Assembly: GCA_022508445.1 (NCBI GenBank)
Contig: JAFLVG010000001.1
Coordinates: 186,001 to 250,000 of the forward strand
Direction: 5' to 3'
Length of the DNA stretch: 64,000 nt
From: Clostridiales bacterium
GTDB lineage: Bacteria; Bacillota; Clostridia; Christensenellales; Pumilibacteraceae
The position numbers and the translations under genes are program-made. Below the pieces are notes generated by a model. It did not search any database and had not been told where the DNA came from. It saw nothing but the letters and a program-made list of their open reading frames with translations. Shown here piece by piece: positions 2,091 to 64,000 of the stretch; positions within the stretch are counted from its first letter, which is position 1, and every line of letters starts with the position of its first letter.

Positions 2091-3247
2091 TCCCCTCGCT
2101 TTTCGGCATAAGTCGATTCGATGATGTCGGCAATCTGCTTTGCGGCGCGCGGCGAACGACCGCCCTTTTTGAGCGCGGAAATCTCCGCTATGGCGGCGTA
2201 TTCGTTACGCCATTTTATGCCGCGAGAGCGCAAAATTTGTTTGAGTATTTCGACAAATTTCTCTTTGTCGGGATTGACGTATGTGACGACAAGCCCGAAG
2301 CGGTCAAACAGCGCAAGCTCCGCTTGAATCTCGTCGTTGCGGTGACGGTAGTCCGTCTTGTCGGTCTCCTTGAACAAGTGCCGACGATTGGACGTGCAAT
2401 AAATGAGCGTATTGCCGGTAACGCTGTCCAGCGAGCCTTCGAGCGCGGTCTTGAACTCGTCCGCTTTCGTTTCGTTTTCTTCAAACACAAGATCGTCTAT
2501 GAATAGAATGAATTTTTGTTTAAGCCCCGACAGCTCGGCTTTGAGAGACGGAAGCCTTCCTATATCGCCGTGCGCGACTTCGATTATTTTGAGCGCGTCC
2601 TTATATTCCTGCGCGAGCGCGCGTACGGTTGTCGATTTGCCTGTGCCGCGGTCGCCGTAAAGCAAAGTGTGGAATGCAGGCAAGCCGTTTATAAAGTTTT
2701 CGGTATTGCGCACAATCTCGGCTTTTTCTTCCTCGTAGTCTTTGAGGTCGAAAAGTCGCACGCCGTCCGTTTCGGTCCTCGTTATCTCGCCGTCGCGGTA
2801 TATAAACGTGTTTCCGCATGCAAGCCTGCCGTAACCGCTCGCGGCGTAAAACGCGAGAAGCCTATCGTAGCTCACCGAAAATCCGCCGAATCCGAAGCGC
2901 GGAAAAAACTGCGCTGTGCTGTCTGTAACGTAATCGTCCGGCTTAATCAGCGAAAGCTGCTTAAACGTCAAAAGCTCGGTTTTGACTTGCGCTTTCAGCC
3001 TTTCGGGAATGCGCTCTGCGCGCGCCGCAGTCCTGCTGAACACATTGTCGTCGATGTAAATAAGCGAACGAATCCACTCGCCTGTCGTGTCGCAGCCACG
3101 CTCCGAAACCTCGCGGAGAACGCGGGCCGAAAGCTCGATTTTACGCACAGGATCGGTGCAAACGCAAAGCTCCGCGAGCGGTGCTATCGCCGCGGCGGTC
3201 TTATCAAACAGCGCTATCGATTTATAACGCAAGTACAATTCGTTCAT
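2087..3247 (-). CDS. DUF815-family P-loop ATPase
   Basis: A 386-residue AAA+-like ATPase. The Walker A motif GDRGTGKST lies near residue 215 and the Walker B motif FILFIDDL near 270, followed by a sensor-1-like segment (LIYCTSNRRHL). The order and the SNRRHL motif match DUF815 proteins, predicted ATPases of unknown biological role. Start chosen at ATG 3247: it lies exactly 6 nt after a perfect -10 box and has no Shine-Dalgarno sequence, so the mRNA appears leaderless. A longer reading would extend through the promoter. It is the first gene of a two-gene unit with the metal exporter, suggesting an accessory role there, but this is inference from position only. Confidence 0.8.
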   Translation of the reverse strand: MNELYLRYKSIALFDKTAAAIAPLAELCVCTDPVRKIELSARVLREVSERGCDTTGEWIRSLIYIDDNVFSRTAARAERIPERLKAQVKTELLTFKQLSLIKPDDYVTDSTAQFFPRFGFGGFSVSYDRLLAFYAASGYGRLACGNTFIYRDGEITRTETDGVRLFDLKDYEEEKAEIVRNTENFINGLPAFHTLLYGDRGTGKSTTVRALAQEYKDALKIIEVAHGDIGRLPSLKAELSGLKQKFILFIDDLVFEENETKADEFKTALEGSLDSVTGNTLIYCTSNRRHLFKETDKTDYRHRNDEIQAELALFDRFGLVVTYVNPDKEKFVEILKQILRSRGIKWRNEYAAIAEISALKKGGRSPRAAKQIADIIESTYAEKRGD

Positions 3248-3276
3248 ACTTAAATTATAACACCGAATGTAAACCC
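3224..3276 (-). promoter_or_regulatory. Promoter, leaderless geometry (DUF815 gene)
   Basis: Reading leftward: TTGACA (RC of tgtcaa at about 3277-3282), 17-bp spacer, perfect TATAAT, then 6 nt (TTAAGT), then ATG at 3247. With the usual 6-nt gap between -10 box and +1, the A of ATG is the predicted first nucleotide of the mRNA. No purine-rich ribosome-binding site is present. Confidence 0.7.
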
Positions 3277-3328
3277 TGTCAACGGTAAACTCGCGGCGCG
3301 ATTGTGTTTCGACACGCTTCGTCCGCAA

Positions 3329-3366
3329 TTGACAAACTTCGCGGAATACGCTACAATGTTAACGGT
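3329..3366 (+). promoter_or_regulatory. Promoter, near-leaderless geometry (AlkZ-related gene)
   Basis: TTGACA at 3329-3334, 17-bp spacer, TACAAT at 3352-3357, then 9 nt to ATG 3367. Predicted +1 is at about 3364, leaving 0-3 nt of leader and no room for a Shine-Dalgarno sequence. It is divergent to the DUF815 promoter, in a 119-bp shared intergenic region. Confidence 0.7.
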
Positions 3367-3972
3367 ATGAACAAAATATATACGCAAGACGATCTCATAG
3401 CGCGCATAAATGAATTCGGCATTCTTCCGTTTTGGACGGAGGACGGATTTTCCGCCGCCGCCATGAGCGGAATAAACTTCAACGCGCTCTGGAACGTGCG
3501 CGAGCAAGCGGTCAACTCGAACAAGATAGTGTACGGCAGATTCGTAAATAAGAAAGCAACGTTCGTGTCGCTCGAAGTGTTTCCGTATCTCGCCGCATTG
3601 AGGCGCGACGGGTATGATTTCGATTCGCTATCCGACGAGGGCAGAGCGCCGAGAAGAGAAATCGATATCATGCAGGCTGTCGGCGACAAGCCCACTCCGT
3701 CGTACAACCTCGGAAAAAGCTTGGGCATGAAGGGCTTCGACGGCGCAGTGGCGTCGCTTCAAAACAAGACGTATCTGTGCCTCAACTTCAAAAAGAGCTA
3801 CATGGGTACAGCCCTATTGTGCCGTCCCGAGGACATCTTCGGGTACGACTACGTGAGAAGCAAGTACAACCTCTCGGTGCAAGAAAATGCCGAGGCAATC
3901 GCGCGCCTCGCAAAAGGTCTGAACGAGTTCGATGAGAAAACGCGCAATAAAATTCTCTCCACCGCAGTGTAA
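3367..3972 (+). CDS. AlkZ-related (YcaQ-like) winged-helix protein
   Basis: A 201-residue soluble protein. The segments YGRFVNKKATFVSLEVFPYL and RDGYDFDSLSDEGRAPRRE (about residues 57-100) resemble the conserved core of 'AlkZ-related' proteins, short homologues of the AlkZ/YcaQ interstrand-crosslink glycosylases built from winged helices. The middle (KSLGMKGFDGAVASLQNKTYL) has the look of a winged-helix recognition region. The catalytic QxQ/QxD motif of true AlkZ is not evident, so glycosylase activity is not claimed. Start ATG 3367 is fixed by a promoter ending 9 nt upstream. It is transcribed alone and followed by a hairpin (4072-4104). A role in DNA damage response is inference from family. 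Confidence 0.6.
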   Translation: MNKIYTQDDLIARINEFGILPFWTEDGFSAAAMSGINFNALWNVREQAVNSNKIVYGRFVNKKATFVSLEVFPYLAALRRDGYDFDSLSDEGRAPRREIDIMQAVGDKPTPSYNLGKSLGMKGFDGAVASLQNKTYLCLNFKKSYMGTALLCRPEDIFGYDYVRSKYNLSVQENAEAIARLAKGLNEFDEKTRNKILSTAV

Positions 3973-4071
3973 AGACAATAAAGGCAAGCCGCACAACTCT
4001 TTTGAAATACGAAACAAGGCTAACGATTATTCCAAGCATTTCGCCCACCGGGCAATCTCAACCTTAAAACA

Positions 4072-4104
4072 TCGAGCGGACGTCCAAATTGAACGTCCGC
4101 TCGA
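4072..4104 (-). terminator. Terminator of the maltodextrin operon, possibly bidirectional
   Basis: Inverted repeat of 12 bp (TCGAGCGGACGT at 4072-4083 with 4093-4104) between convergent genes. Leftward reading gives GATGTTTTAAG after the stem, a short U-tract. Rightward reading lacks one. Confidence 0.6.
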
Positions 4105-4141
4105 TTATCGTAGGATTGGAGGAAAAATCCGAAGCCTATCT

Positions 4142-6480: not shown

Positions 6481-6490
6481 GCTCGCCTCA

Positions 6491-7996: not shown

Positions 7997-8006
7997 ACAA
8001 CACCTC

Positions 8007-9686: not shown

Positions 9687-9729
9687 GAATTACCTTGACT
9701 TAAAGTTTGATGTTTGTTAAAATATCGAT
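9687..9729. promoter_or_regulatory. Divergent control region lacI / GH13 operon; leaderless lacI promoter
   Basis: For the rightward gene: TTGACT at 9695-9700, 17-bp spacer, TAAAAT at 9718-9723, then 6 nt (ATCGAT) and ATG 9730, with no ribosome-binding site, so a leaderless mRNA is predicted. The segment ACTTAAAGTTTGA at 9698-9710 resembles the palindromic operator at 12514-12525 (ACTTAAACGTTTAAC) but lacks one central base, so autoregulation is possible though weakly supported. The leftward promoter of the GH13 operon must start inside or overlap this region. Its boxes are poor (TTGTCG ... TAACAA). Confidence 0.6.
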
Positions 9730-10554
9730 ATGAGTTCGACAAGAGATAGAAAGAAGAACAGAGTCACCATAAAGGACGTTGCCACCGCCGCCGATGTTTC
9801 CATAGCCACGGTGTCGTATGTGCTTAACAACACCCCCGGACAATCTATAAGCGAAGACACGCGCAAAAAAGTTTTGCAGTTTGCCAATCTTTTAGGCTAC
9901 GAATGCAACGTTATGGCAAAGTATTTGGCGTCAGGAAAATCGAACACGATTTCCGTGATTCTAAAAGACGCTAAACCGTTCGCGGCACATTACTATTTGA
10001 AACTGTTGACAGAGCTTTCGCGCCTACTGTGGCGACAAAATTTCGGACTCAAAATAGTCGATTACAGCGACGGCTTCAAGCGCAACACCGATTGTGACGC
10101 TTACATAACGATTGCACTGTCGGAAAAAGAGTTTCGCGAGTTTGCCGACACCAAATACATTCCGGTAATAGCGATTGACAGTGCGTTCGACGATTTCCTT
10201 TTCTACCGTATCAACGACGACTACGAATCGCTGTACAAAACTGCGAAATCGGAATCGGGCTTGGACAAGATAGGACTTCTGACTTTCGATCTACCCGAAG
10301 AAGTTATACAATCCGCCTCCGCCGTTTTCGACGAAGTAAAAATCGTAAATTCATTAAGCGATTTAAACGCGCTCGACAGCAAAACGTGCTACGTCACTCT
10401 ATCGGGCGCAATACACGACATCGCCCCGAAATCGCTCAATATTCGATTGCAAAGTTCGTCGTTCGCTCTTAAAGCGTCTGCGGCGGCAGATGCCGTGATA
10501 AAGGCTCTTAACCGCTTACAAGCTCCGTCCGGAGAACACCACATAAAGGTTTAA
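9730..10554 (+). CDS. LacI-family transcriptional regulator (short sensor domain)
   Basis: A 274-residue regulator. Residues 12-70 form the LacI helix-turn-helix and hinge (VTIKDVATAADVSIATVSYV, then RKKVLQFANLLGYECNVMAK). The sensor domain of about 200 residues is clearly shorter than the usual 270-280 and diverged, so it may be a compacted ligand-binding domain. It is divergent from the maltodextrin operon and probably controls it. A perfect LacI-type palindrome also lies in the promoter of the starch-binding lipoprotein gene downstream. The mRNA looks leaderless (ATG 6 nt after the -10 box). Ligand is unknown; maltose or maltodextrin is inferred. Confidence 0.85.
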   Translation: MSSTRDRKKNRVTIKDVATAADVSIATVSYVLNNTPGQSISEDTRKKVLQFANLLGYECNVMAKYLASGKSNTISVILKDAKPFAAHYYLKLLTELSRLLWRQNFGLKIVDYSDGFKRNTDCDAYITIALSEKEFREFADTKYIPVIAIDSAFDDFLFYRINDDYESLYKTAKSESGLDKIGLLTFDLPEEVIQSASAVFDEVKIVNSLSDLNALDSKTCYVTLSGAIHDIAPKSLNIRLQSSSFALKASAAADAVIKALNRLQAPSGEHHIKV

Positions 10555-10639: not shown

Positions 10640-12457
10640 TTACACACTTACGGAATAGATATCCACCTTGCCGGTTGCGATTGTGTAAACGACTTTGTAT
10701 GTACCCGTCGTCGTGCAAGTGAAGTTGGTTCCGGACTCTGGACGGAAGCTGTCGTTTGCGTCGCCGTCCGTACCGAGCTTAGTGACGTCGATAAATGTTC
10801 CGTTGCCGCTTGACGCGCCTTTATCATACAGGGCAAGGCCGAAACTGTTCCCTTCGCCTGCGGTAATCGTTACCGTAATCTCATACGCCGTTTCTTCGGA
10901 ATTGAGAACCATTCTCCACTCTTCGGCGAAACCGTGATTCCAATCGCTCGGGCTCGGCGTGCCTGCCGAATTAGTTATGCCTACGCCCTTAATATAGATA
11001 TCGTAAATATCGGGCGAGTCGCTGTGAATTGTGATTTTAATAATTTTCGAATAGCTGTCGAACGCAATGTCATAAGTACCGGCTGTGACGACTTTGATAT
11101 TATAGTTGTCTCCTGCGGGATTTGCCGCGACAAAAGCATCGCTCGTATTGTTAAAATACTTATAGCTGTATGTGTTTGCCATATTATCCCAACCCAATTC
11201 TTCCGTGCCTGCCGCGTAAGCTCTTATAACAATCTCATCATCCGCGGCAAGAGAAAGTCCGGTATAAGTGTAAACGCCATTATTCGCCGTCAACTTGAAC
11301 GAATCGGCATCTTGTTGGTAGGCGCCCCAATTGACCTCACCGTATTTTCCGTCAAGATAATAGTCGTATTGCGCAGGCGTTTTTTGATCGTTGAACGTTA
11401 CTGACAAGGTTTCAGCTTTCGCATCGTAAACAAACGTATACATTCCGCTCGCCTTTGCGGTTATGTTTCCTGTTGTGCCGTCTACATACGCTTTACTGGC
11501 TTCGGTGAGTTTATCCGCCTTGATATTAGGACCGCTTGCAATCTGTCCGTCAACCGATTGTTTGGATATGAACATAAACTGCTCGTTCTGTTTGAGATAA
11601 ATCTCCAACGTATAAATATCGCCGTTTTGTCGCATTTGCGTAGCGTCATTGTACATATCCGCCCATGCGGTGATATTTTCGCCCTTAATGAAGTAATGTG
11701 TGTAGTCGGAAGACACCTCGGCGGCGTCACCGTTGCGCTTGTATGAAAGCTCCGTTAGCTTGCCGTCTACATCCACGTCGAGCGTCAATGTATAATTGCC
11801 CGACTGCCCGACCATGATGTCCGCAGTCTTGTTTATGCCGCTTAGTCCGCCGCCGAAATAGAACGGAGCATCGCTCTCGGTGGAGTACTGCTCCGGCGTC
11901 ATGTAGCCGTAACCGATTTGATAATTGCCCCATCCGTCTACCGTATTGAGGATTTGGAATTTATCCTTTGCGTAAAAATCGGCAGTGAATGTAAATCTGT
12001 TTCCTTTATTAGCGTCATGGTCAAACGTTACACTTGCAGGCAAATCGGCAGCCGAATCCCCCTTAAACTCTTTCCAGTCGCCCGATTCGGCAAACAGCGC
12101 GGATGTCGAAGATGTACCCGCAAGATACCAAGTGTGATCGTCTGCGGCAGTAGAGCGAAATCCCGCATATACACTTGTGTTTGCCACAATACCGACAGAA
12201 AAGTCAAACGGCTGACTGTAAGTGGGCGTCGCGCACCAGCGCACAAATTCATACCCTTCTTTCGGAGGATCCTCCGCAGGTCTGGTCACCGTCCCGTTTT
12301 TGGATACTTCTTGCGTATACAACACGGTTGTTCCATCGTAAAATGTTACCGTGTATTTCCCACTACCTGTACCTGCATCATCTCCGCAGGCCATAAGCGC
12401 GCCTGCACCCATTGCCACGCATAATGCCGAGATGAGCAATTTTTGCACTTTTTTCAT
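10640..12457 (-). CDS. Starch-binding-type surface lipoprotein with InlB-like and repeated beta domains
   Basis: A 605-residue lipoprotein. The signal peptide MKKVQKLLISALCVAMGAGA ends in lipobox LMAC. Residues 33-100 (KYTVTFYDG ... GYEFVRW ... VYAGF) match the InlB/Listeria-Bacteroides beta-grasp repeat found in surface proteins. The remainder contains about four similar beta-sandwich units. Each ends with a variant of 'GTYxxxYDxxxxxLxVT' and the later units carry WG/WD aromatic positions, a pattern seen in starch-binding modules (SusE/F and CBM types). No catalytic motif is seen. Start ATG 12457 has GGAGG 6-7 nt upstream. The promoter contains a LacI-type operator, so expression is likely tied to the neighbouring maltodextrin genes. 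Alpha-glucan binding is inference. Confidence 0.7.
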   Translation of the reverse strand: MKKVQKLLISALCVAMGAGALMACGDDAGTGSGKYTVTFYDGTTVLYTQEVSKNGTVTRPAEDPPKEGYEFVRWCATPTYSQPFDFSVGIVANTSVYAGFRSTAADDHTWYLAGTSSTSALFAESGDWKEFKGDSAADLPASVTFDHDANKGNRFTFTADFYAKDKFQILNTVDGWGNYQIGYGYMTPEQYSTESDAPFYFGGGLSGINKTADIMVGQSGNYTLTLDVDVDGKLTELSYKRNGDAAEVSSDYTHYFIKGENITAWADMYNDATQMRQNGDIYTLEIYLKQNEQFMFISKQSVDGQIASGPNIKADKLTEASKAYVDGTTGNITAKASGMYTFVYDAKAETLSVTFNDQKTPAQYDYYLDGKYGEVNWGAYQQDADSFKLTANNGVYTYTGLSLAADDEIVIRAYAAGTEELGWDNMANTYSYKYFNNTSDAFVAANPAGDNYNIKVVTAGTYDIAFDSYSKIIKITIHSDSPDIYDIYIKGVGITNSAGTPSPSDWNHGFAEEWRMVLNSEETAYEITVTITAGEGNSFGLALYDKGASSGNGTFIDVTKLGTDGDANDSFRPESGTNFTCTTTGTYKVVYTIATGKVDIYSVSV

Positions 12458-14722: not shown

Positions 14723-15128
14723 GGTCTATCCCTCCTTAAACCGAAATTAATAATGCATAAGACAAAGCAAGCGCACTCATACGCAAACTACGTCGCCGAG
14801 CAAACCCTACGATGCAATGAATTTAAAAAACGCACATAAACGGAATTTGTCGTTTAGCAGAATTCTGTGTATGCCTGTTGAAATACATATTAAGTTAAAA
14901 TCTTTTTCTCCAATCGGTCGAAAGATCTGTCGGCACAGTTAGTATATCACAGTTTAAATTAAAAATCAATACTTTATCGATTTAATCTTGTCATTCATAC
15001 ATGACTGCATTATAAATCGGGTATTATACTCCCCCAAGAGTATTACATATGATTTGTCGTCACCGCCGATTTGCCACCGCAAAAATTCAAATTTACTTTT
15101 CTACTGAAACGAGTCGAACCGTTACGGG
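14723..15128. other. Intergenic: promoter and long 5' leader of the lipoprotein gene
   Basis: The left 210 nt are the predicted leader of the gene starting at 14722. Its promoter is TTGATT (14964-14969), 17-bp spacer, TATACT (14941-14946), read leftward. The leader is A/T-rich with no recognised riboswitch. The right 180 nt (14950-15128) are A/T-rich and hold no gene that I can support. No clear terminator for the ABC-F gene is seen. Confidence 0.5.
14941..14969 (-). promoter_or_regulatory. Promoter of lipoprotein/membrane-protein unit
   Basis: TTGATT (14964-14969), 17-bp spacer, TATACT (14941-14946), leftward. Predicted start near 14934, giving a leader of about 212 nt. Confidence 0.65.
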
Positions 15129-16595: not shown

Positions 16596-16615
16596 ACCAA
16601 AATCCTCCTTAACGC

Positions 16616-16650
16616 AAAAAAAGAGCTATGAGAAAGTTATCTCATAACTC
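16616..16650 (-). terminator. Attenuator terminator before the ABC-F gene
   Basis: An 11-bp stem with one G-U pair (16640-16650 with 16623-16633), 6-nt loop, then seven U (16616-16622), immediately upstream of the ribosome-binding site of the ABC-F gene. Confidence 0.85.
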
Positions 16651-16762
16651 AATTAACGCTCAAAAATATCAGACCTATTATTTGAGAAATCGACAGATTA
16701 AACTTTCTTGCAATGCCATAAACCAAAAGAGCAAAAAAACCTATCGGCTTATGATATAAGAA

Positions 16763-16783
16763 TTAGCAAGAAACTATAATCAC
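16763..16783 (-). CDS. Leader peptide MIIVSC of the ABC-F attenuator
   Basis: GTG ATT ATA GTT TCT TGC TAA, six codons, with AGAGGTGA 5 nt upstream of the GTG. Its last codons are inside the first leader hairpin, the position expected for antibiotic-induced stalling. It is too short for homology. The case rests on position, ribosome-binding site and RNA architecture. Confidence 0.6.
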   Translation of the reverse strand: MIIVSC

Positions 16784-16980
16784 TCCATTCACCTCTGATT
16801 TCGGTCTGAAAATATTATACCATATTTTAAAATTCAAAACAAGCAAAATGATGTATTTAAACGATAAAAAATTTTCACGTTGGATATACGACTTTGTTTG
16901 TAATAAGAAAAGCGTGGCGTCGATTTCCCATCAATGCACTATGCTGTAAGTTGAGCAATTATGCTCCCTATTTAAATTAT

Positions 16981-17018
16981 AAAATAAGAGCGCAGACATC
17001 AGTCTGCGCTCTTATTTT
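16981..17018 (+). terminator. Strong hairpin with A-rich and T-rich shoulders, orphan
   Basis: A 17-bp perfect inverted repeat (AAAATAAGAGCGCAGAC with its complement) around a 4-nt loop. It would terminate transcription in either direction. No recognisable gene ends next to it on the plus strand. It could end an unannotated small RNA (16.86-17.02 kb) or be a relic of a lost gene. Confidence 0.65.
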
Positions 17019-17116
17019 ATGGTTGAGCTATGGCGTTAGAGTTTGAACGCATTTTTTGTCGTTCTATGAGTTCGTTTGTTTCAGCAAAGAGCTTTCTTCA
17101 TATTTTCTGAAACTAC

Positions 17117-17145
17117 TTGCCAATAACGAAAGCTTGTGCTAAACT
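17117..17145 (+). promoter_or_regulatory. Promoter of HNH gene
   Basis: TTGCCA (17117-17122), 17-bp spacer, TAAACT (17140-17145), 33 nt upstream of the start. A ribosome-binding site AAAGGAG follows. Confidence 0.55.
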
Positions 17146-17178
17146 TTTACTAACGGGGTATCTGCAAAGGAGAAAGGG

Positions 17179-18012
17179 GTGACTGAAACGGGAATTATAT
17201 TACTTGTATTTGTAGCATGTCTGATTGCGGCGGTAATAGCACTTGTTTGTTGTGCAATAATTTATAAAAAGCACTTAAAGATAGTTAAAGAAAACAGCGA
17301 ATATTATGCTGAGGTTCTAAAATTAAATGGCTCTTATGAGTTTTATTCTAATTTTTCAAGCGTGTATAAATATCACGAAACTTGCGCCTCAAAAAGAAAA
17401 TTAGAAAACCTATCGCTTGTAGATGTTCTACTATCAAGAATTGATTGTAACTTTACTTTTTATGAATATTTAATATCGCAAGTTAAAAAAAATAGAAAAA
17501 ACTATGAATCATACTACGAAAAGTATAAATGTCTATGCTCCACTATAACCGAAGATAAAATTAAAGGGTTGAAGATAAAATTAAGTGCCTTTCTCAAAAT
17601 TGAGAGAGGCTTATGCGAAAAGTCAAAACTAACACCACAATTGTCCACCTCAGTCTACATAAGAGCAAGCTACACAAGTCCCAAAGGCAGGAATTCATAT
17701 AGTAAAGAAAGAACATTTACATATGATGAGCTTGTTATCGCTTTTAATCAATACTTAGCATTGAAGAAACAGCAAAAAGATTATTCGTATCAAGTGAAAG
17801 TCGAAAGAGCAAAAATGACTGATTCATTAAGATATGATATCTTAAAAAGAGATAATTTTATGTGCCAGTTGTGCGGGGCAACAGCCCAAGAAGGGGCAAA
17901 ATTGCATGTTGACCATATTGTACCCGTTGCCAAAGGTGGAAAAACGATTGCCTCTAATCTGAGAACATTGTGCGATAGATGCAATATGGGTAAAAGTGAT
18001 AAAATTGAATAA
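17179..18012 (+). CDS. Membrane-anchored HNH endonuclease-domain protein
   Basis: A 277-residue protein starting at GTG 17179 (AAAGGAGAAAGG upstream). Residues 5-30 form one transmembrane helix. Residues 35-215 are Lys/Tyr/Glu-rich and likely helical. The C-terminus (about 220-277) is a complete HNH nuclease module: CQLC near 232, DHIVPVAKGG near 247, NLRTLCDRCNMGKSDK at the end, i.e. two Cys pairs for zinc and the catalytic His. HNH domains cut DNA in many defence, restriction and mobile contexts. An N-terminal membrane anchor is unusual. Codon use is strongly A+T-rich compared with neighbours, suggesting recent acquisition. The biological role is unknown. Confidence 0.75.
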   Translation: MTETGIILLVFVACLIAAVIALVCCAIIYKKHLKIVKENSEYYAEVLKLNGSYEFYSNFSSVYKYHETCASKRKLENLSLVDVLLSRIDCNFTFYEYLISQVKKNRKNYESYYEKYKCLCSTITEDKIKGLKIKLSAFLKIERGLCEKSKLTPQLSTSVYIRASYTSPKGRNSYSKERTFTYDELVIAFNQYLALKKQQKDYSYQVKVERAKMTDSLRYDILKRDNFMCQLCGATAQEGAKLHVDHIVPVAKGGKTIASNLRTLCDRCNMGKSDKIE

Positions 18013-18201
18013 GCCTTGCGGGGTAAATTGATAGTATTACTTTTATACGCCACTATATAACACTGTCACGCTTTTTCGTAAAAGTACGGCAACACACGGG
18101 CGGCGAAGCCGCCCGTGTGTTGATGGCGTATAGTATTACCACGCCACCCCGTAACGTGTAACACTTTTGGCGTAAATAATGAGGAGTAGAGCGAAATAAT
18201 A
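18013..18201. repeat. Structured GC-rich inverted-repeat element (cruciform)
   Basis: Centre: a perfect 15-bp stem (18090-18104 with 18108-18122) with the 3-nt loop GAA, very G+C-rich inside an A+T-rich surrounding. Further out, TATACGCCA near 18047-18055 is mirrored by TGGCGTATA at 18123-18132, and weaker repeats (GTGTAACAC, TTTTGGCGTA) extend to about 18175. The layout resembles a small non-coding mobile repeat (REP/MITE-like) or a structured RNA. No transposase is present. Short leftward ORFs here look like chance reading through the repeat. Confidence 0.6.
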
Positions 18202-19014
18202 ATGTTTGACATATCAAAATATTTAAACAATGAAACATTTTTGATAAATGACAAAAATACTTGGCATCAAGATTTGTTGGATTTAATAGAAAGCAATAAG
18301 CCGTTTATTCGCAAGTATAAGTATGTTGAAACTTATAATTTCAATTTGCATGAAGCTGCCAAAGATTGTACACCAGTTAATTATAAAAATTTACATAGAA
18401 CAAATCTGTATTATTATGATTTAGAATATATTAAAGAATGTGTAAAATCAGAATTGCAAAAATTAACGCTAATCGGTTATCACGCAACAAGACTAACAAA
18501 TGAAGAAGTTGCTAATATTAAAAAAGACGGTTTGATAACTTCCAGCAAAGAAAATTGTTATAAACGAGCCGATAATTTGCTCTTTGACGGATATATCACA
18601 AAGAATGAATGTAATTACATAAAACGTCATTGCATTTTAAATTTTCCATTTGAGTCTGATAGACTTGGTCAAATTTGGTTTCTATCAGGAAATTGTGATA
18701 TTTCAACAAAATATACGGGGCTAAATAATCTGTATAAAGACTACGGCGGTGAGACTATTAGAAATGGAATTGAGAATACGCAACTTTTAAAGAAACTAAA
18801 CGAAATAAGTAAACCGTGTAGTGTTATTTCGTATGTTAAATTAAATACTATACCTCAATATCAAATTGATACATTGGCAGAAAAATTATTGTTACAGAGT
18901 AATAAAAGAAATATAAGTAAAATTTCTTTTGAAATGTATTCCGAAAGCAAAAGAATTTCAGTTATAGATATAATTTATGTGAATGAACATACCAGATTAA
19001 AATTTATAAAATAA
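18202..19014 (+). CDS. Unknown A+T-rich protein, possible ADP-ribosyltransferase-like fold
   Basis: A 270-residue soluble protein rich in Asn, Lys, Tyr and Ile. I do not recognise a family with confidence. A segment near residues 93-112 (IGYHATRLTNEEVANIKKDG) resembles the first strand and following helix of small ADP-ribosyltransferase or RES-like toxin folds (Tyr-His-x-Thr-Arg), and YKDYGGETIR near 180 could supply later active-site residues. This is a guess. Ribosome-binding site GAGGAG is 16 nt from the ATG, farther than usual. Base composition matches the HNH gene and differs from the core genes, so both probably arrived together. A hairpin terminator follows (19050-19089). Confidence 0.5.
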   Translation: MFDISKYLNNETFLINDKNTWHQDLLDLIESNKPFIRKYKYVETYNFNLHEAAKDCTPVNYKNLHRTNLYYYDLEYIKECVKSELQKLTLIGYHATRLTNEEVANIKKDGLITSSKENCYKRADNLLFDGYITKNECNYIKRHCILNFPFESDRLGQIWFLSGNCDISTKYTGLNNLYKDYGGETIRNGIENTQLLKKLNEISKPCSVISYVKLNTIPQYQIDTLAEKLLLQSNKRNISKISFEMYSESKRISVIDIIYVNEHTRLKFIK

Positions 19015-19049
19015 AGAGTAGATAAAATATTCTTTTCTCTATGATTACA

Positions 19050-19089
19050 AAAGAAAAATCACAAGGCTGTTGCCATGTGCTTTTTCTTT
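19050..19089 (+). terminator. Terminator after the unknown A+T-rich gene
   Basis: Imperfect inverted repeat AAAGAAAAATCACA (19050-19063) with TGTGCTTTTTCTTT (19076-19089), 36 nt after the stop codon. The 3' arm itself supplies a T-rich tract. Confidence 0.6.
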
Positions 19090-19165
19090 ACTGGTATGCG
19101 ATAAAGCCCGCTACACCTTTGACGAAAATGTATTCCGTTTTTAGGTGTTCAAACTTTAACGACAT

Positions 19166-19556
19166 TGGTGGAGATGAGGGGAGTTGAACCCCTTTCCGAC
19201 GCGGGTTTGCGGGGACATCTACAAGTTTAGTTTATCGCTTATTGTCCGAGAAGGAACAGCAATAAACAAATGTTCCGTCTCGCGAGGTCTGAGTACTCGA
19301 AGCGGTGCGACCGATCCCGATTCGAGTTGCCTACCGTTCAATTACGCTCGCCGTCCCGCCGATAGGTAGCGGGGGCGAACGCCGTAGCTAAATTAAGCTG
19401 CGAATGCCATTGCGGGAGCCGCAACCGGAGCTGCGAACTTTACCGTTTTGGCGGTTTCGTTTTTGTTGGCAATTATAGCCTTTTGCGTTTTTAGGTAGAC
19501 GGCCCTACCACTTGCTTTCCGTCGCTACGCCGCGCCGTCGAAGCCTTTACATCCCC
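19166..19556 (-). ncRNA. ssrA: Transfer-messenger RNA (tmRNA)
   Basis: A 391-nt tmRNA that rescues stalled ribosomes with SmpB. The 5' end is GGGGATGTAAAGGCTTCGAC (from 19556 leftward). The 3' end is GGAGTTCGAACCCC-type T arm followed by CATCTCCACCA, with CCA encoded (19166-19168). The tag reading frame lies at 19393-19470: resume codon GCC, then 24 codons and TAA, encoding ANKNETAKTVKFAAP followed by VAAPAMAFAA. The hydrophobic Ala-Ala end is the degradation signal. A promoter (TTGCAA, 17 bp, TATAAT) lies just upstream, 11 nt from the mature 5' end. The 3' end faces the A+T-rich island, a common integration site. Confidence 0.95.
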
Positions 19557-20274: not shown

Positions 20275-20976
20275 TTAATCGAGCAAGCCATGCGATTTCA
20301 ACGCATCAAACAGCTCGCTCGGCTTGTCGATAACGAAATTCGGATTGTACTCGTCAAGCACGGCGCGGTCGCGGAATCCCCAAGTCACCGCAACCGACAC
20401 AATGCCGCAATTATTCGCAGTTTTCATATCGGTTTCGCCGTCGCCCACGTACACCGCCTGCGACTTATCGACGCCGATAAGCTCCAAAGCTTTTTTCACC
20501 CCGTCGGGCGCAGGCTTTGGCCTTATGCCGTCTTGCGCACCCACAACGACGTCAACGCTCGAAAAAAACTTGTCTTTGAGCGCCCTCGCCGCGCCGTCGT
20601 ATTTATTGGTGACAATCGCTGTTTTGAGTCCCAGACATTTCGCCGCGGCGAGCATTTCGGACACGCCTTCATACGGCTTTGTAAAGTCGGCATTGTGCTT
20701 ATCGTAATACTCGGTAAAAACCGACAGGCATGCGTCAAAGAGTTCACGGTCGCCAATCGTTTCGCTATCCGACTTGGGATCGACGCCGTTTATCAAAAAA
20801 TACAGCGCGCGCTCGATGAGCCTCGGCACGCCGTTGCCCACATACCGTCTGACACGCGCTTTATCGAGCGCGGCGTAAGAAAGAGCGCCGAGCGCGTGAC
20901 CTAACGCCGCCGTCAAATCGTCGAGCGTGTCGAGTAATGTTCCGTCCAGATCGAATACTATTGCTTTGATTTTCAT
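20275..20976 (-). CDS. HAD phosphatase, phosphoglycolate phosphatase-like
   Basis: A 233-residue HAD hydrolase of subfamily IA. Motif I FDLDGTLLDT (residues 8-17) holds the nucleophile Asp and the acid/base Asp. Motif II is VTNKYDGA near 120, motif III the Lys in RPKPAPDG near 150, motif IV VYVGDGETDM near 173. The cap is of the alpha-helical Gph/PpaX type, so phosphoglycolate or pyrophosphate are plausible substrates. The start overlaps the stop of the preceding HAD gene by 4 nt (ATGA). Confidence 0.8.
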   Translation of the reverse strand: MKIKAIVFDLDGTLLDTLDDLTAALGHALGALSYAALDKARVRRYVGNGVPRLIERALYFLINGVDPKSDSETIGDRELFDACLSVFTEYYDKHNADFTKPYEGVSEMLAAAKCLGLKTAIVTNKYDGAARALKDKFFSSVDVVVGAQDGIRPKPAPDGVKKALELIGVDKSQAVYVGDGETDMKTANNCGIVSVAVTWGFRDRAVLDEYNPNFVIDKPSELFDALKSHGLLD

Positions 20977-21653
20977 TTTCTATCCGCAAGTGCTATAAGC
21001 TCTGCCGCGTGCGCCGCCGCGCCGCCGTCAGCCTTCACATACATAATTCCGAAATCCGCCGCGCCCATGCCGTCGCTGACCGTGTCGTCGCCCACCATAA
21101 CCGCGTCGCGCTTATCGAGTCCGTACTTGTCGAACAGCATGCCGAAATACTTCGGATCGGGCTTGCGGCAGCCGCACTCCGAGCTCAACAAAAAGCCGTC
21201 GAACGCACCCGACAGTCCGCACTCTTCGATTTCCTTATACGTAAACGACGCTTGCGCATTGCTCAACAGATATAGTTTTGCCCCGCGCGTTTTCAGCTTT
21301 TCGAACAGCTCCTTAATTCCGTCGAACAGCCGCAAATGCACAATGGACGCGAACCGCGCTTTCACGGCGCACTCCGTGGCAGTCTCGTCGTCAAGTTCGC
21401 CGCCGAGCGATTTTGCTATGCCCTTGTACACACACAAGATATCGCCTTCGGGGTATGCGTATTCGGAACTTTCATAAAGCTCGTCGAGGTGCTTTTTCCA
21501 GCACTCGTCGTACAATGCGCACAGCGTTTGCCAATCGGTTTTAATTCCGCGCTCCGCGAAAAAATCGACTATCGGCGCCCACGACTGCTCTCTATGCTCG
21601 TCGGTGCGAATGTCGATCAGCGTGTTATACAAATCGAACACAAAAGTCTTCAT
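20973..21653 (-). CDS. HAD-superfamily hydrolase (subfamily IA)
   Basis: A 226-residue HAD hydrolase. Motif I VFDLYNTLIDI (residues 4-14) has Asp then Tyr-Asn-Thr, so the second Asp of the DxD motif is replaced by Asn. Such DxN variants occur in haloacid dehalogenase-like members. Motif II LLSNAQ near 125, motif III KPDPKYFG near 155, motif IV VMVGDDTVSDGMGA near 178. Substrate unknown. It is first in a two-gene unit with the Gph-like phosphatase. Its promoter ends 6 nt before the ATG with no ribosome-binding site, indicating a leaderless mRNA. Confidence 0.8.
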   Translation of the reverse strand: MKTFVFDLYNTLIDIRTDEHREQSWAPIVDFFAERGIKTDWQTLCALYDECWKKHLDELYESSEYAYPEGDILCVYKGIAKSLGGELDDETATECAVKARFASIVHLRLFDGIKELFEKLKTRGAKLYLLSNAQASFTYKEIEECGLSGAFDGFLLSSECGCRKPDPKYFGMLFDKYGLDKRDAVMVGDDTVSDGMGAADFGIMYVKADGGAAAHAAELIALADRK

Positions 21654-21659
21654 GTCACT

Positions 21660-21688
21660 ATTATAAGCTTTTTGTAACTTTTTTTCAA
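21660..21688 (-). promoter_or_regulatory. Promoter, leaderless geometry (HAD gene)
   Basis: Leftward: TTGAAA (21683-21688), 17-bp spacer, perfect TATAAT (21660-21665), then AGTGAC and ATG at 21653. The predicted +1 is the A of the start codon. Confidence 0.75.
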
Positions 21689-33910: not shown

Positions 33911-36163
33911 TCAGTTTTTTATCTTGAACGAGATTTTGGACGAAAGCAGTCCGTCGCCCGTGATCTTGACAACAACCTTGTTTTCGGCGGGATCGGGGCG
34001 AATTACCGCGAGCGCGCGTCCGCCGTATGCGGGGCAACTGTCAAACTCGCTTTTTCTGAGCATGGGATCGGCGTTTATGAACGAAACAAGCTCACCGCCC
34101 GTAACAGTCACGCCGAGCGTACGCATAGCATAAGGAACGAGCTCGCCGTCGCGGTCGCAAACCTCTGCGGTGACAAACCCGAGATCGCCGCGCGACACCG
34201 AGAGATTCTTTTCGTAAGCGGAAAGCCTGAGCACCTTGGGCGAGCCTGCCGATTTGAGCCTGCCCCTCGCGCACTCGACGCCCTTGAAATACGCAACCGC
34301 TTCGAGCGTACCGGGGTAATAATCGACGTCGAATGTCGCTATGTGTTTATTCACCTTGCCCGCGAGCTTGCGGCCTACAAGGCGACCGTCGAGATACAGC
34401 GCCACAACGTCGCCCGAGGTGTAAACCTGAACCTTTATTTTTTGACCGAGATAACGCGGCCAGTTCCACATATTGACGTTGTCGCCCGAATCGGGATCGA
34501 CCGAGGTTATATATGCTATATTTCGCGCGCCGAGAAGTATTCGCTTATACATCGCTTGCGGCTTCTCGCAGCAAATAGCGTCAATGTCGCCGAGCGTCGT
34601 GTAGATTTCGTTGAGCTTGCCGCCTCCGGGGTAGTCTATGCCGCAGTCGTTGAAATCTCCGATAACTCTGCCGTTCTTTTCGGTAGCGTCAAGGCTCTCG
34701 AACGCACGCTCGGAGCTTGTCCTTGCGCCCACAATAAGTCTGTCTCGTTTGAGCTTTTCCGTTTCGTACATCGGGTACAAATAGTTAAATCCGCAAATGT
34801 CCACGCGGTCAAACGCACCGGCTGTAAGCTGGTCGAACAAATTCTTTTCGCGCGCGGCATTTATAGCCGCAGTGTCGTTTTCGTAATGAACTTTACGAAA
34901 TCCCGCCGCTTCCATTTCCTTGGCGGTCGGAACGAACTCGTGTGCGGAAACGGTTATGGGACGCGTGTCGTCGAATTCGCGAATATAGCTCGCCATAACG
35001 TCGATTATTTCATGACCGTCGTTTCGTCCGTAGCACTCGGGAACGTCGTCGGCAATCCCGTAAAGCGTGACCGACGGGTGATTACGAAGCGCCCAAACCT
35101 TCTCTGTCGGCGCTATGTTTTCGGTAAGCACGGAAATGGGAGCCTTGGGCGCAACAAGCTGCGCCGCAAGATCGACAAAAGCGAACATGCCGACGTCATC
35201 ACACGCATCGAGCGCGGCGTCGGTCGGGCAACCCACAAAGTGCACTGCGTTATACCCTATCTCTTTAAGCGCTTCGAGCCGACGCTTTTCGTTTGAGTAT
35301 ACCGACGCGCAACCGAGCGCGGCGTCCGCATGCGAAATATACGCGCCTCTTAAAAGAGTGTTCCTGTTGTTAATATAGAGTCCACGCGTTTGGTTTAGAG
35401 CGCGCGACACAATGCCGAACCGCACACTATCTTCGCGCTCGACGCCGTCCTGAGACGACAGCTTGACCGCCATCGTGTACATGTACGGATCGTCGGGCGA
35501 CCACTCGTAAGGATTGTTGATACGAACTTTGACCGAAAACGGCTTTGTCTGACCTGCTCTCAAATAGAGCTTACGCTGTTTCTTGCCGGCACGCTTGCCA
35601 CGCGCATTGAGTGCGGTACAATCCAAAACGAGTTTAAGCGGCTGTTTGCCGTTGTTGAAAACCGAAACGTTCACATCCGCGTATGTTCTGTCGCCGACCG
35701 TGACGGTCTTGACAAAAATCGGGTCGTTGTAATCGAAATCCCATTCCTCGTCCAAAACAACGAGCTTGACGCCGCCGGCAATACCGAGCCCCATGTACTT
35801 GTCTGTCATGCCCGGTGTGTTGAAAAGCTGTATGCGCAAAGAGTTGTTTGCGCCGGTAAGCATATCGTCTATATAGAAGGTGGTCGGCGCATATCCCACA
35901 AGCGTGCCGACCTTTTCATCGTTGACAAAAACGTCGCCGTAACCGCAAGCGCCCGAAACGACAAGGCGCGCCGCACCGTGCTTGACCTGCGGCAAGGATT
36001 TGGCAAACACCGCTCTTGCTGCGGGGATGTACCCGTTAAGCTGACCGTAGGCACACGAATAGTCCCTCGCCGCCCCCGACGTTACGTCGTGCGGCAAGTC
36101 GCAAACATATTGTTCGTCTCCCGCGGTGATATCCCAATTAGTGTTTAAAGCGACACTTTTCAT
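33911..36163 (-). CDS. GH2-family protein with substituted catalytic residues
   Basis: A 750-residue cytoplasmic protein with the GH2 layout: sugar-binding jelly roll (1-150), immunoglobulin-like domain (160-265, ending near FGIVSR), TIM barrel (270-540), and C-terminal Ig-like domains (GDVVALYLDGRLVGRKLAG; a C-terminal part typical of beta-galactosidase-like GH2). In active relatives the barrel has 'RNHPS..WS.GNE' with the acid/base Glu and 'GSETAS' with the nucleophile Glu. Here these read RNHPSVTLYGIADD and VGARTSS, so both Glu are absent. It may bind sugars without hydrolysing them, or have moved its catalytic residues. The mRNA is predicted leaderless. Confidence 0.8.
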   Translation of the reverse strand: MKSVALNTNWDITAGDEQYVCDLPHDVTSGAARDYSCAYGQLNGYIPAARAVFAKSLPQVKHGAARLVVSGACGYGDVFVNDEKVGTLVGYAPTTFYIDDMLTGANNSLRIQLFNTPGMTDKYMGLGIAGGVKLVVLDEEWDFDYNDPIFVKTVTVGDRTYADVNVSVFNNGKQPLKLVLDCTALNARGKRAGKKQRKLYLRAGQTKPFSVKVRINNPYEWSPDDPYMYTMAVKLSSQDGVEREDSVRFGIVSRALNQTRGLYINNRNTLLRGAYISHADAALGCASVYSNEKRRLEALKEIGYNAVHFVGCPTDAALDACDDVGMFAFVDLAAQLVAPKAPISVLTENIAPTEKVWALRNHPSVTLYGIADDVPECYGRNDGHEIIDVMASYIREFDDTRPITVSAHEFVPTAKEMEAAGFRKVHYENDTAAINAAREKNLFDQLTAGAFDRVDICGFNYLYPMYETEKLKRDRLIVGARTSSERAFESLDATEKNGRVIGDFNDCGIDYPGGGKLNEIYTTLGDIDAICCEKPQAMYKRILLGARNIAYITSVDPDSGDNVNMWNWPRYLGQKIKVQVYTSGDVVALYLDGRLVGRKLAGKVNKHIATFDVDYYPGTLEAVAYFKGVECARGRLKSAGSPKVLRLSAYEKNLSVSRGDLGFVTAEVCDRDGELVPYAMRTLGVTVTGGELVSFINADPMLRKSEFDSCPAYGGRALAVIRPDPAENKVVVKITGDGLLSSKISFKIKN

Positions 36164-36340
36164 ACTGTCATTATAACAATATGAAAATCAAATTGCAACT
36201 AAATTGACGCGTTTTTTGTATTTGCATCGCGAAAAGATTGAAATTCCGCAGTAAAACCCCGAAAACCGTAAATATTGGGGTGTAACGGTTTTGACATTAT
36301 CCGCAACGGAAAACCGCACGGCTAAAAGCGCACTTACCCG
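36164..36340. promoter_or_regulatory. Promoter, leaderless geometry (GH2 gene), and spacer
   Basis: Leftward: TTGCAA (36193-36198), 17-bp spacer, perfect TATAAT (36170-36175), then GACAGT and ATG at 36163. There is no ribosome-binding site. The rest of the gap (36199-36340) holds nothing I can support. Confidence 0.75.
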
Positions 36341-41151: not shown

Positions 41152-42087
41152 TCAGCTCTGACCGTCATGCACTTTGTCTGCGCCGTCATTTGCTTCGGGC
41201 ATTGCTTTGAGCCTTTTGTACCCGCCTATAAGCATATACAACCCGATAGCTAAAATCGCCGCAACGATGACGCCGCCGAGAAGCGGATTCATGACCTTGA
41301 CGAACATATTTTTCTTGGCGTTAAGCTCCTTGAACATCATCGCTTGAAGCGCGAACAAAGAAATAAGCGCGTCCGAAAAACTTATGTTCTTTACGGCGAT
41401 GAGCGACATGTCGTCTTGCTTTCTCACCTTTTTCATGTTGTAGACGGCAATACCCATTTTAATAAACGTGTACGCGGCAATGCCTGTGACGTACGCAACC
41501 GCACCGATAAAATAATTATAACTGTTGTCGTCGTTTATAGTGAGCCTGATTACGGGTATTATCGCCAATGCGAGCATGACAAGCACAATGCCGCAGTTAC
41601 TGTAAGCGCGTAGCTGTCTTTCCTCCGCATTCCTATCGTCCTTTCTGCCGTGAAGTCTTGCCGTTACCAACACCTCGACGCGCGGAAGCACAAGAAAAAT
41701 ATGATACCCGACAAGCGCACCCAGCCACTCCGAGTGTTCGAGAACGGCGATTAAAATTCCGAACGCGACGTACAGCAGATTGAAAATTACGGAACACGTC
41801 GCATAAACGAACGCGCGAGTATTGTAGCTTCTAAAAAATTCGCGCACCTTGGGCTTGTCCTTCACACGTTCGGGAACGCCTACGACAGTCAGCACGGCAT
41901 AAACCGAAAGCACGCCGAAAACAACCGCAACCAAATACACCGGCAATGCCCACATCTTCAAGCCCATGCCGAGATAGTAGAGAGTGATACTGCCAACAAG
42001 CGAAGCCACTCCCGCCGCCCATACCGTTATGCACATCCACATCGGCGGCTTTATCAAGAATTTGAGTATTTTGTTGCGCTTACTCAT
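41152..42087 (-). CDS. Membrane protein of unknown function
   Basis: A 311-residue protein with about eight hydrophobic helices and a positively charged N-terminus (MSKRNKILKFLIKPPMWM). No family recognised. An intracellular loop (about 150-165) carries RLHGRKDDRNAEERQ. A segment near 240 (MSLIAVKNISFSDALISLFALQAM) recurs in uncharacterised Clostridia membrane proteins. Start ATG 42087 is chosen because the promoter ends 9 nt upstream. An upstream TTG would fall before the predicted transcript start. It is a single-gene unit, transcribed toward the exporter genes. Confidence 0.65.
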   Translation of the reverse strand: MSKRNKILKFLIKPPMWMCITVWAAGVASLVGSITLYYLGMGLKMWALPVYLVAVVFGVLSVYAVLTVVGVPERVKDKPKVREFFRSYNTRAFVYATCSVIFNLLYVAFGILIAVLEHSEWLGALVGYHIFLVLPRVEVLVTARLHGRKDDRNAEERQLRAYSNCGIVLVMLALAIIPVIRLTINDDNSYNYFIGAVAYVTGIAAYTFIKMGIAVYNMKKVRKQDDMSLIAVKNISFSDALISLFALQAMMFKELNAKKNMFVKVMNPLLGGVIVAAILAIGLYMLIGGYKRLKAMPEANDGADKVHDGQS

Positions 42088-42096
42088 AGTCAAAAA

Positions 42097-42125
42097 AGTT
42101 TACAATATTTTATCTTCGAAGTCAA
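42097..42125 (-). promoter_or_regulatory. Promoter, near-leaderless geometry (membrane protein)
   Basis: Leftward: TTGACT (42120-42125), 17-bp spacer, TAAACT (42097-42102), then 9 nt and ATG at 42087. No ribosome-binding site. Confidence 0.65.
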
Positions 42126-59466: not shown

Positions 59467-59483
59467 GCAAGTTATTTACCGCC

Positions 59484-61106: not shown

Positions 61107-61131
61107 AATAACCTCGCAAAACAGCATAATA

Positions 61132-61160
61132 ATTATAGCATAATTGTGCTTGCAAGTCAA
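61132..61160 (-). promoter_or_regulatory. Promoter of the starch-binding esterase gene
   Basis: Leftward: TTGACT (61155-61160), 17-bp spacer, TATAAT (61132-61137). Leader about 25 nt. Confidence 0.75.
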
Positions 61161-61335: not shown

Positions 61336-61425
61336 TGGCGGAGAGAGCGGGGTTCGAACCCGCGGTACCTGTTACAGTACGCTCGCTTTCCAAGCGAGTA
61401 CCTTCAGCCGCTCAGCCATCTCTCC
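61336..61425 (-). tRNA. tRNA-Ser (anticodon GGA)
   Basis: A 90-nt class II tRNA. Acceptor arm GGAGAGA pairs with TCTCTCC, CCA is encoded (61336-61338), anticodon loop TTGGAAA between CTCGC/GCGAG gives GGA for UCC/UCU codons. It has a long variable arm (CGTACTGTAACAGGTACCG) and T arm GGGTTCGAACCC. The discriminator base is G, as expected for serine. Confidence 0.95.
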
Positions 61426-61479
61426 GTGTCGTCCGCTTATTGTGCGGACGAGATATTTTATTTGGTTATTGATTGTCCG

Positions 61480-62502: not shown

Positions 62503-62505
62503 GGA

Positions 62506-62922
62506 TTAACGCTTGGAGAACTGCGGAGCTTTGCGCGCCTTTTTGAGACCGTATTTTTTACGCTCTTTCATGCGCGGATCGCGAGTGAGGAATCCCGCCT
62601 TTTTGAGCGCCGGACGGTAAGTCGTGTCCACATTGCAAAGAGCGCGCGAAATGCCGTGACGAATCGCACCGGCTTGACCGGTATAACCGCCGCCGCGGAC
62701 GTTGACGATTACGTCGAACTTACCTGCCGTATCGGTTTCGGCAAAGGGCTGATTGACAATAAGTTTAAGCGTATCGAGCGGAAAATAATCGTCGAGCGAA
62801 CGCTTATTGACGGTTATCGTGCCGCTGCCGCCTGCCAAGATACGTACACGCGCGACCGCTTTTTTGCGGCGGCCCGTGCCCCAATATTGAACTTTCTTTT
62901 TTGCGGAAGATTTAGCTGCCAT
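62506..62922 (-). CDS. rpsI: 30S ribosomal protein S9
   Basis: A 138-residue protein with the standard S9 motifs: [19 protein letters not shown] (about 13-31), [19 protein letters not shown] near 75, and the C-terminal [17 protein letters not shown] that reaches the P-site tRNA. It follows rplM by 16 nt in the classical rplM-rpsI operon. Confidence 0.97.
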
Positions 62923-62938
62923 AGCTTATTACCTCTTT

Positions 62939-63427
62939 TTAATTTGCCTTGTCGTTATAGAGCTTGATTGCAAGCGGCTGGGGTTTTTGAGCTTCGTGAT
63001 TATGCTCCGCGCCCTTGAACACTTTGAGCTTTTTGATCATCTGACGGCCGAGCGAGTTTTTGGGAAGCATTCCTTTGACGGCCTTTTGTATCGCCTTGTC
63101 CGAATTCTCTTCGAGGAAGTGCGAATACTTCTGCTGCTTCAAACCGCCCATATAACCGGTATGGTAGGTGCGAAGCTTTGCATTAGCCTTGTTTCCCGTA
63201 AGCACGACCTTGTCCGAATTGACGACAATAACGAAATCGCCGACATCGACGTTGGGGGTGTACTCGGGCTTGGTCTTGCCTTTGAGTACGGACGCGACGG
63301 TGCTTGCAAGCCGACCGAGCGGCACGCCTGCCGCGTCGATGACAAACCAATTGCGCTTATATTCCTTATCGCCGATCTTGTAGTCGGCGGTACGGGAATC
63401 GATTTTTTTTGCCATTAATGTTTTCAT
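62939..63427 (-). CDS. rplM: 50S ribosomal protein L13
   Basis: A 162-residue protein starting MKTLMAKKID, the usual N-terminus of L13 in Bacillota. Motifs: RNWFVIDAAGVPLGRLASTV, GDFVIVVNSDKVVLTGNK near 65, and AVKGMLPKNSLGRQMIKKLK near 115. Start ATG 63427 has GAGG 9 nt upstream. An internal ATG at 63415 is less likely. Confidence 0.95.
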   Translation of the reverse strand: MKTLMAKKIDSRTADYKIGDKEYKRNWFVIDAAGVPLGRLASTVASVLKGKTKPEYTPNVDVGDFVIVVNSDKVVLTGNKANAKLRTYHTGYMGGLKQQKYSHFLEENSDKAIQKAVKGMLPKNSLGRQMIKKLKVFKGAEHNHEAQKPQPLAIKLYNDKAN

Positions 63428-63649
63428 TGAAAACAACCTCGTAAAAATTTTTTAACCGGATTTCGTCTAAATCGTACGGCGCAGTCGCTTGGGAATAGCA
63501 ACTCTCCGCGCGTATTATCGGAACTCCTAAGCGCAAACGTTTCACGCCGCCGCGCTCTTGCGGTACGAACAGACGGTTGCCGGGGCAGGTCAAACCCATC
63601 CGCGCCGCAGTGCAAAGAGTATTATACAATAAATCTTTTCCTCTGTCAA
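63428..63649 (-). promoter_or_regulatory. Promoter and long leader of rplM-rpsI
   Basis: Leftward: TTGACA (63644-63649), 17-bp spacer, perfect TATAAT (63621-63626). The predicted leader is about 187 nt, G+C-rich and structured, consistent with the L13 autoregulatory leader known upstream of rplM in Bacillota. I did not match its consensus base by base. Confidence 0.65.
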
Positions 63650-63839
63650 CTGTTTAAACAGCATTACCCTATCCTAATATTTAAGACAAAACCGCACGCC
63701 GTATGGATAATGAGAATTTCGGCACAAATTTTTTATGCCTTTTTTCGGGCACAAAAAGACACAAAATGACATAAAAAGCCTCCGCTCAAAAAGCGCACTT
63801 TTTGTTGATTATCGTCGTAAAAGCAGGTAAAATGTATGC
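63650..63839. promoter_or_regulatory. Upstream region and leaderless promoter of the last gene
   Basis: A promoter TTGATT (63805-63810), 17-bp spacer, TAAAAT (63828-63833) ends 6 nt before ATG 63840. No Shine-Dalgarno sequence is at a usable distance (AGCAGG is 12 nt away, overlapping the -10). Further upstream are two short direct repeats, GACACAAAA and GACATAAAA (63757-63774), of unknown meaning. Confidence 0.55.
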
Positions 63840-64000
63840 ATGGACAAAATCTTATTGAACGAATACATATCGCTGATTTCAGACTCCTCATTCAAGCTGA
63901 CAGCAGAAAGACTGACATTTAAGAGCGGTGTGCGCGCCGATCTCAAAGGCTGTGACCTGCTTGCGGAGGCCGTCATACTTTACGGCACGGAGACATGCAC
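63840..64000 (+). CDS. Start of an unknown protein (partial), weak resemblance to a Spo0A C-terminal domain
   Basis: The first 53 codons, reading MDKILLNEYISLISDSSFKL and continuing open to the window edge. The segment LKGCDLLAEAVILYGTETC faintly recalls the start of the Spo0A DNA-binding domain (G-x-x-x-L-x-x-A-I). This is a guess from a short fragment. The start fits a leaderless promoter exactly (6 nt). Confidence 0.45.
   Translation, partial: MDKILLNEYISLISDSSFKLTAERLTFKSGVRADLKGCDLLAEAVILYGTETC

Follow-up and report, generated by a model that had tools for sequence, protein, structure and literature searches.

Do some genes of this bacterium begin transcription at the start codon itself? 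The question is raised by a 64,000-nt stretch of DNA (the window) from an uncultured Clostridiales bacterium (assembly GCA_022508445.1, contig JAFLVG010000001.1, positions 186,001 to 250,000 of the forward strand), where several genes are preceded by a promoter whose –10 box ends exactly 6 nt before the ATG. Leaderless mRNAs are known from Mycobacterium and Deinococcus, which belong to other phyla. As a reading of the sequence alone had proposed, promoters with this layout very probably drive leaderless mRNAs predicted to start at the A of the ATG. Three lines of evidence support this conclusion: enrichment of the 6-nt distance, retention of that distance across the genus at three genes while the bases in the gap change, and a –1 base that is mostly a pyrimidine. 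Judged from the genomes compared here, this branch of gut bacteria seems to have the layout unusually often and to conserve it well.

Enrichment of the 6-nt distance

We define d as the number of nucleotides from the end of the –10 box to the start codon. A gene-level set of 460 kb was assembled from the window and 396 kb of the same genome and contained 348 genes. A TATAAT-like box (at least five of six bases, with T1, A2, and T6 required) stood at d=6 before 17 of these genes, and the counts at d=4, 5, 7, and 8 were 0, 3, 3, and 2. The result was 17 of 336 genes when the stretches of this set were left unjoined, and 15 of the 17 genes also had a –35 match of at least three of six bases. When the upstream regions were dinucleotide-shuffled 100 times, by comparison, the d=6 count averaged 1.76 and never exceeded 7. 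By this excess (17 versus ~2 expected among 348), the layout extends to about 4% of genes, or some tens of genes per genome.

Pattern searches gave the same picture. TTG-N20-TANAAT-N(3–10)-ATG had 101 matches in the whole 1.78-Mb genome, and d=6 accounted for 42 of the 100 matches listed, with each of the other seven distances represented by 5–11 of these sites (mean 8.3; binomial p ~2e-13). The exact d=6 pattern occurred 43 times in the genome, whereas a reversed control had no matches. Among 92 promoter-like sites in the 460 kb, an ATG was present at d=6 in 13 cases, 11 of which open a reading frame of at least 60 codons, and no other distance from 0 to 30 had more than five ATGs. Thirty of the 43 sites were fetched, with repeat rows of one divergent pair removed, and 27 of these open reading frames (ORFs) that span at least 60 codons or run off the locus. 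Two genus relatives also showed an excess at d=6, with 10 of 190 genes in G016 (shuffle mean 1.09) and 6 of 105 genes in G009 (shuffle mean 0.48). Gene counts, the pattern scan, and shuffling all bear out the genome-wide enrichment that the sequence-only reading had put forward as its check. Because the d=6 scan demands a TTG –35 element and TANAAT, leaderless genes with other promoters would be missed. An extended –10 element (TG one base before the –10 box) is present in 21 of the 43 sites.

A separate class at 9 nt had been suggested, but d=9 accounted for 7 sites among the 100 listed, compared with an average of 8.3 when d=6 is set aside. In 860 kb, moreover, 28 ORFs had d=6, d=7 and d=9 had 7 each, and d=4, 5, 8, and 10 had 2–4. 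We therefore rejected a 9-nt class. Leaderless starts at GTG or TTG gave no clear d=6 peak in the same 860 kb (6 and 5 ORFs, respectively, versus 28 for ATG, with up to 4 GTG and up to 6 TTG ORFs at other distances).

Promoters and genes of the window

The seven promoters initially singled out are all present letter for letter, each with a 17-bp spacer, and no Shine-Dalgarno (SD) sequence is visible by eye at any of the seven genes. Five have d=6. On the minus strand, TTGACA-17-TATAAT (3248..3282) precedes the ATG at 3247 of a predicted leaderless DUF815/AAA ATPase gene (2087..3247; PF05673), whose start was called without motif information; TTGAAA-17-TATAAT (21654..21688) precedes the ATG at 21653 of a predicted leaderless HAD hydrolase gene (20973..21653; PF00702), residue 1 of which aligns with profile position 1; and TTGCAA-17-TATAAT (36164..36198) precedes the ATG at 36163 of a predicted leaderless glycoside hydrolase family 2 (GH2) gene (33911..36163; PF18565 and PF00703). 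On the plus strand, TTGACT-17-TAAAAT (9695..9729) precedes the ATG at 9730 of a LacI-family regulator gene (9730..10554; PF00356), and TTGATT-17-TAAAAT (63805..63839) precedes the ATG at 63840 of an ORF that continues to the window end (63840..64000); both are predicted to be leaderless. The latter segment encodes the first 53 residues of a 127-aa ORF seen in locus L145 and matches no Pfam or NCBIfam family. In the remaining two cases the distance is 9 nt: TTGACA-17-TACAAT (3329..3366, plus strand) before the ATG at 3367 of an AlkZ-related gene (3367..3972; PF24741), and TTGACT-17-TAAACT (42088..42125, minus strand) before the ATG at 42087 of a gene labeled earlier as a candidate membrane protein gene (41152..42087; no Pfam family). 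A gene caller that relies on codon content and the type of start codon, and ignores upstream motifs, chose these ATGs in all six genes contained fully within the window; the gene at 63840 runs past the window end.

Six other promoters had been cited as leading into ordinary leaders with a ribosome-binding site. The genes at 12457, 46862, and 49959 are preceded by GGAGG or AGGAG, only GAGG is found before 52669, 54512, and 61106, and the motif-blind caller placed the gene starts at 52669 and 61106 elsewhere. One further d=6 match lies on the minus strand at 15000-15037, where the ATG opens 3 codons; it is perhaps the ordinary promoter of a transcript with a long leader.

Conservation of the layout in orthologs

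Five genes were compared in relatives: DUF815, the AlkZ-related gene, dtd, thiamine diphosphokinase (TPK), and GH2. First, the AlkZ-related gene, which is divergent from DUF815, has d=6 in all 11 genus relatives with a match (12 loci inspected), and the source genome alone has d=9. These orthologs, recognized by position and an ORF of 200–205 codons, have TTGACA, a spacer of 17 or 18, and TANNNT, with nine different 6-base gaps among the 11 and always a pyrimidine at –1. Second, dtd was matched in 45 genomes, and loci from 30 of them were used. Within the genus, d=6 was found in 19 of 19 loci, the source genome included. The other 11 loci came from other genera, and d=6 was found in none of the 10 that were scorable (one was too short to score); in several of these, G030 and G055 among them, an SD is visible by eye. 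Third, 16 of 18 genus loci for TPK have d=6; a script scored 15 of these, and one, whose –35 is weak, was judged by eye. In the remaining two (G007 and G011), also by eye, an upstream in-frame ATG follows the –10 box at 9 or 10 nt. L256, in which the gene is split, and the nine loci of other genera (L259-L267) are not part of this count, and neither of the two loci read outside the genus had d=6. Finally, the GH2 distance is kept in G016, the sole relative in which this gene was seen.

We also compared reciprocal best hits. Among 54 scored of 56 pairs with G016, the layout was present in both genomes in 2 pairs, in the source genome only in 1, in the relative only in 2, and in neither in 49 (p=0.012). 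The 14 pairs with G009 included 0 with the layout in both, 1 in the source genome only, 1 in the relative only, and 12 in neither. Upstream of DUF815, loci L029 and L030 have 28 nt between the –10 box and the ATG and no visible SD, an arrangement that is neither leaderless nor clearly SD-led.

Probable initiation of transcription and translation at the d=6 ATG

If the A of the ATG is +1, the preceding base should resemble that of other transcription start sites (TSSs), and a pyrimidine–purine step at –1/+1 was present at the start sites of all species analyzed in a published comparison (PMC4782308, consulted in part). The –1 base is C or T in 38 of the 43 d=6 sites and is never G, compared with a pyrimidine at 64% of all 348 starts (p=3e-4). 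In G052, which belongs to another family, T occupies –1 in 27 of 27 sites by eye, compared with 58 of 92 sampled starts (p=4e-6). This strictness varies within the order; in G195 and G218, for example, some sites have G or A instead.

Protein profiles bear on whether the same ATG begins translation. NCBIfam was used to scan 20 of the 30 fetched d=6 proteins. Alignments ran from residue 1 for dtd and fumarate hydratase and, with Pfam, for the HAD hydrolase, supporting the d=6 ATG as the true start of these three genes, and began within ~4 residues of the start for the AlkZ-related protein, LepA, TPK, and an ECF ATPase. SD sequences were absent from all 17 d=6 genes in the 460 kb but present at 171 of 348 genes overall. 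The 16S rRNA tail (...CACCTCCTTT) carries the usual anti-SD, and the ordinary SD route is thus intact. First genes predicted to be leaderless (27) and the remaining first genes (173) did not differ clearly in base composition after the ATG or in folding of the first 40 nt (minimum free energy –4.33 versus –4.86, respectively; p=0.51).

In the mechanism that we propose, in which the position of +1 and the mode of translation are the parts we infer, the housekeeping sigma factor would bind the –35 and –10 elements, usually across a 17-bp spacer, and RNA polymerase would start at the A of the start codon, with a pyrimidine at –1. The resulting 5'-AUG transcript would be translated without an SD, presumably by 70S or IF2-assisted initiation, and such genes would coexist with ordinary SD-led genes served by the canonical anti-SD. 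Distances of 7–10 nt would leave leaders of 1–4 nt, which may behave alike.

Evidence against leaderless initiation and alternative explanations

Several observations weigh against leaderless initiation. Only 4 of the 13 DUF815 loci compared in the genus have d=6, the source genome included, and the others have d=8, 12–15, or 28 without a clear SD (all by eye). The gap sequences of GH2 and dtd are themselves partly conserved, and dtd and TPK were chosen because they have d=6 in the source genome. Among reciprocal-best-hit pairs with the layout in either genome, it was shared in 2 of 5 (G016) and 0 of 2 (G009), although these pairs are few. The lack of SD sequences at d=6 genes is partly forced, because the –10 box occupies the SD zone. 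The d=6 ORF of gltX starts 18 residues ahead of its family profile, which begins at residue 20, and thus this d=6 ATG may be an unused start. Lastly, 3 of the 30 fetched sites open only 3, 26, and 27 codons. Because d=6 is kept at dtd, TPK, and the AlkZ-related gene but is variable at DUF815, the layout is, as far as orthologous loci indicate, constrained at some genes and drifting at others.

One alternative, which overlaps with strictly leaderless initiation, is that transcription starts scatter from –4 to +1 and give leaders of 0–4 nt that are translated without an SD. The orthologs with d=8, 9, or 10 (DUF815 in L032 and TPK in G007 and G011, both by eye, and the AlkZ-related gene of the source genome) are as expected from such scatter, as are the somewhat higher ORF counts at d=7 and d=9 in the 860 kb. 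The peak at 6 is sharp, however, with 10 and 11 sites at d=5 and d=7, compared with 42 at d=6, among the 100 matches listed in the whole-genome scan, and we regard this explanation as possible but not probable. A second alternative is that the promoters are real but the d=6 ATG is passed over, with translation beginning at a later in-frame codon that has its own ribosome-binding site. This model would account for gltX and for the three short reading frames, but it fits poorly with the alignments of dtd, fumarate hydratase, and the HAD hydrolase from residue 1 and with retention of the ATG itself 6 nt from the –10 box across AlkZ-related, dtd, and TPK orthologs, and it seems distinctly improbable. 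Chance placement of TANNNT boxes near ATGs in AT-rich intergenic DNA, which may explain the ~8 promoter-like sites seen at each of the remaining distances and could still explain single d=6 sites, is refuted for the class, and is exceedingly unlikely overall, because the d=6 count far exceeds those obtained with shuffles, reversed patterns, or any other distance and because the distance is conserved across the genus at three genes.

Distribution across lineages

By RplA, the neighbors of the source genome are metagenome-assembled genomes labeled Christensenella sp. (93%), Pumilibacter intestinalis (76%), and Borkfalkia (70–71%), whose order we take to be Christensenellales; DUF815 used in the same way gave no placement. 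The d=6 pattern occurs at least 8 times per Mb in 48 of 111 genomes of the order, the source genome included, and none of 118 other genomes of the phylum reaches this density (median 1.48 per Mb; maximum 6.67). The ratio of d=6 sites to the mean for d=8–11 is 4.2–7.3 in 20 genus genomes and 2.4–7.0 in 17 others of the family; in other families of the order it is at least 2 in 13 of 24 genomes, and several are at or below 1. At the gene level, the samples from outside the family, which are thin, had d=6 at only 3 of 99 genes in G041 and 1 of 92 in G052 (140 kb each) and at 0 of 98 in G188 (120 kb). The signal extends throughout the family, forms a mosaic across the order, and is weak in the 118 other genomes of the phylum. 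Among named species, there are 35 d=6 sites in P. intestinalis, 23 in Borkfalkia stercoripullorum, 13 in B. excrementavium, and 9 in the 4.1 Mb of Cellulosilyticum ruminicola. Since P. intestinalis is cultured, the leaderless prediction is directly testable.

Relation to known leaderless genes

The comparisons here draw on parts of the published reports. Leaderless genes had been described to us as seldom reported in Bacillota, a statement that needs correction, as Zheng et al. (2011; PMC3160421) predicted leaderless (TA-led) genes in 56 of 209 Firmicutes genomes. The Firmicutes mean was 4.2% of genes (2.4–16.6), similar to the ~4% excess here, and, as in that study, the sites described here have a TANNNT –10 box ~12 bp before the start codon and occur alongside SD-led genes. 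There are also differences. The Firmicutes examples of Zheng et al. were concentrated in Lactobacillales and Mycoplasma, and "clostridi" is absent from the main text of PMC3160421. Unlike their TA-led genes, our sites carry a –35 element with a 17-bp spacer, in part because our scan required TTG. Zheng et al. also reported that translation genes are less often leaderless; the predicted leaderless set here includes dtd, gluQRS, tilS, lepA, and a weak Hsp15-like match.

In TSS maps of Clostridia, which are Bacillota too, leaderless genes are few and leadered ones many. C. difficile has 15 genes that are potentially leaderless (PMC7438776), Sporomusa has 7 (PMC12456013), and in C. phytofermentans the share is 4% of intergenic TSSs, although the genes concerned generally have another upstream TSS and a ribosome-binding site (PMC5171806). 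In contrast to what the consulted parts of these reports describe, the d=6 layout is kept genus-wide here at dtd, TPK, and the AlkZ-related gene. In Akkermansia and Bifidobacterium, which belong to other phyla, 10 and 15% of TSSs coincide with a start codon (PMC4782308), a position measured there and predicted here. The StartLink paper quotes a prediction that leaderless transcription occurs in 21.6% of bacterial species. Judged by titles and the beginnings of abstracts, we found no literature on leaderless genes or TSSs in this order. The kind of gene is thus already known, whereas its occurrence in this lineage and its ortholog conservation at dtd, TPK, and the AlkZ-related gene were not found in print by the searches made here.

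In a broader and rather unlikely scenario, much of the order would have inherited leaderless initiation stably as a layer of gene control, gained or lost by family, with orthologs switching mode at genus boundaries, as dtd appears to do, and with translation of the set persisting when ordinary initiation is blocked. If so, the leaderless set would be the group of genes still translated under such a block. The dtd layout, present throughout the genus and absent from scorable relatives outside it, offers a natural comparison for mode switching and its use. Annotation may also be affected, as starts of this type could be misplaced by gene-finding programs built around an SD.

Other features of the window

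The codon-based caller placed no gene in ~2.6 kb at 16596-19165, a stretch that adjoins the tmRNA gene. Two ORFs lie inside it on the plus strand, one of 277 aa with an HNH endonuclease domain (17179-18012) and one of 270 aa with no Pfam family (18202-19014), and the stretch may represent an element that inserted at the tmRNA gene. The tmRNA itself (19166-19556) encodes a 25-residue tag peptide, ANKNETAKTVKFAAPVAAPAMAFAA, which is seemingly long.

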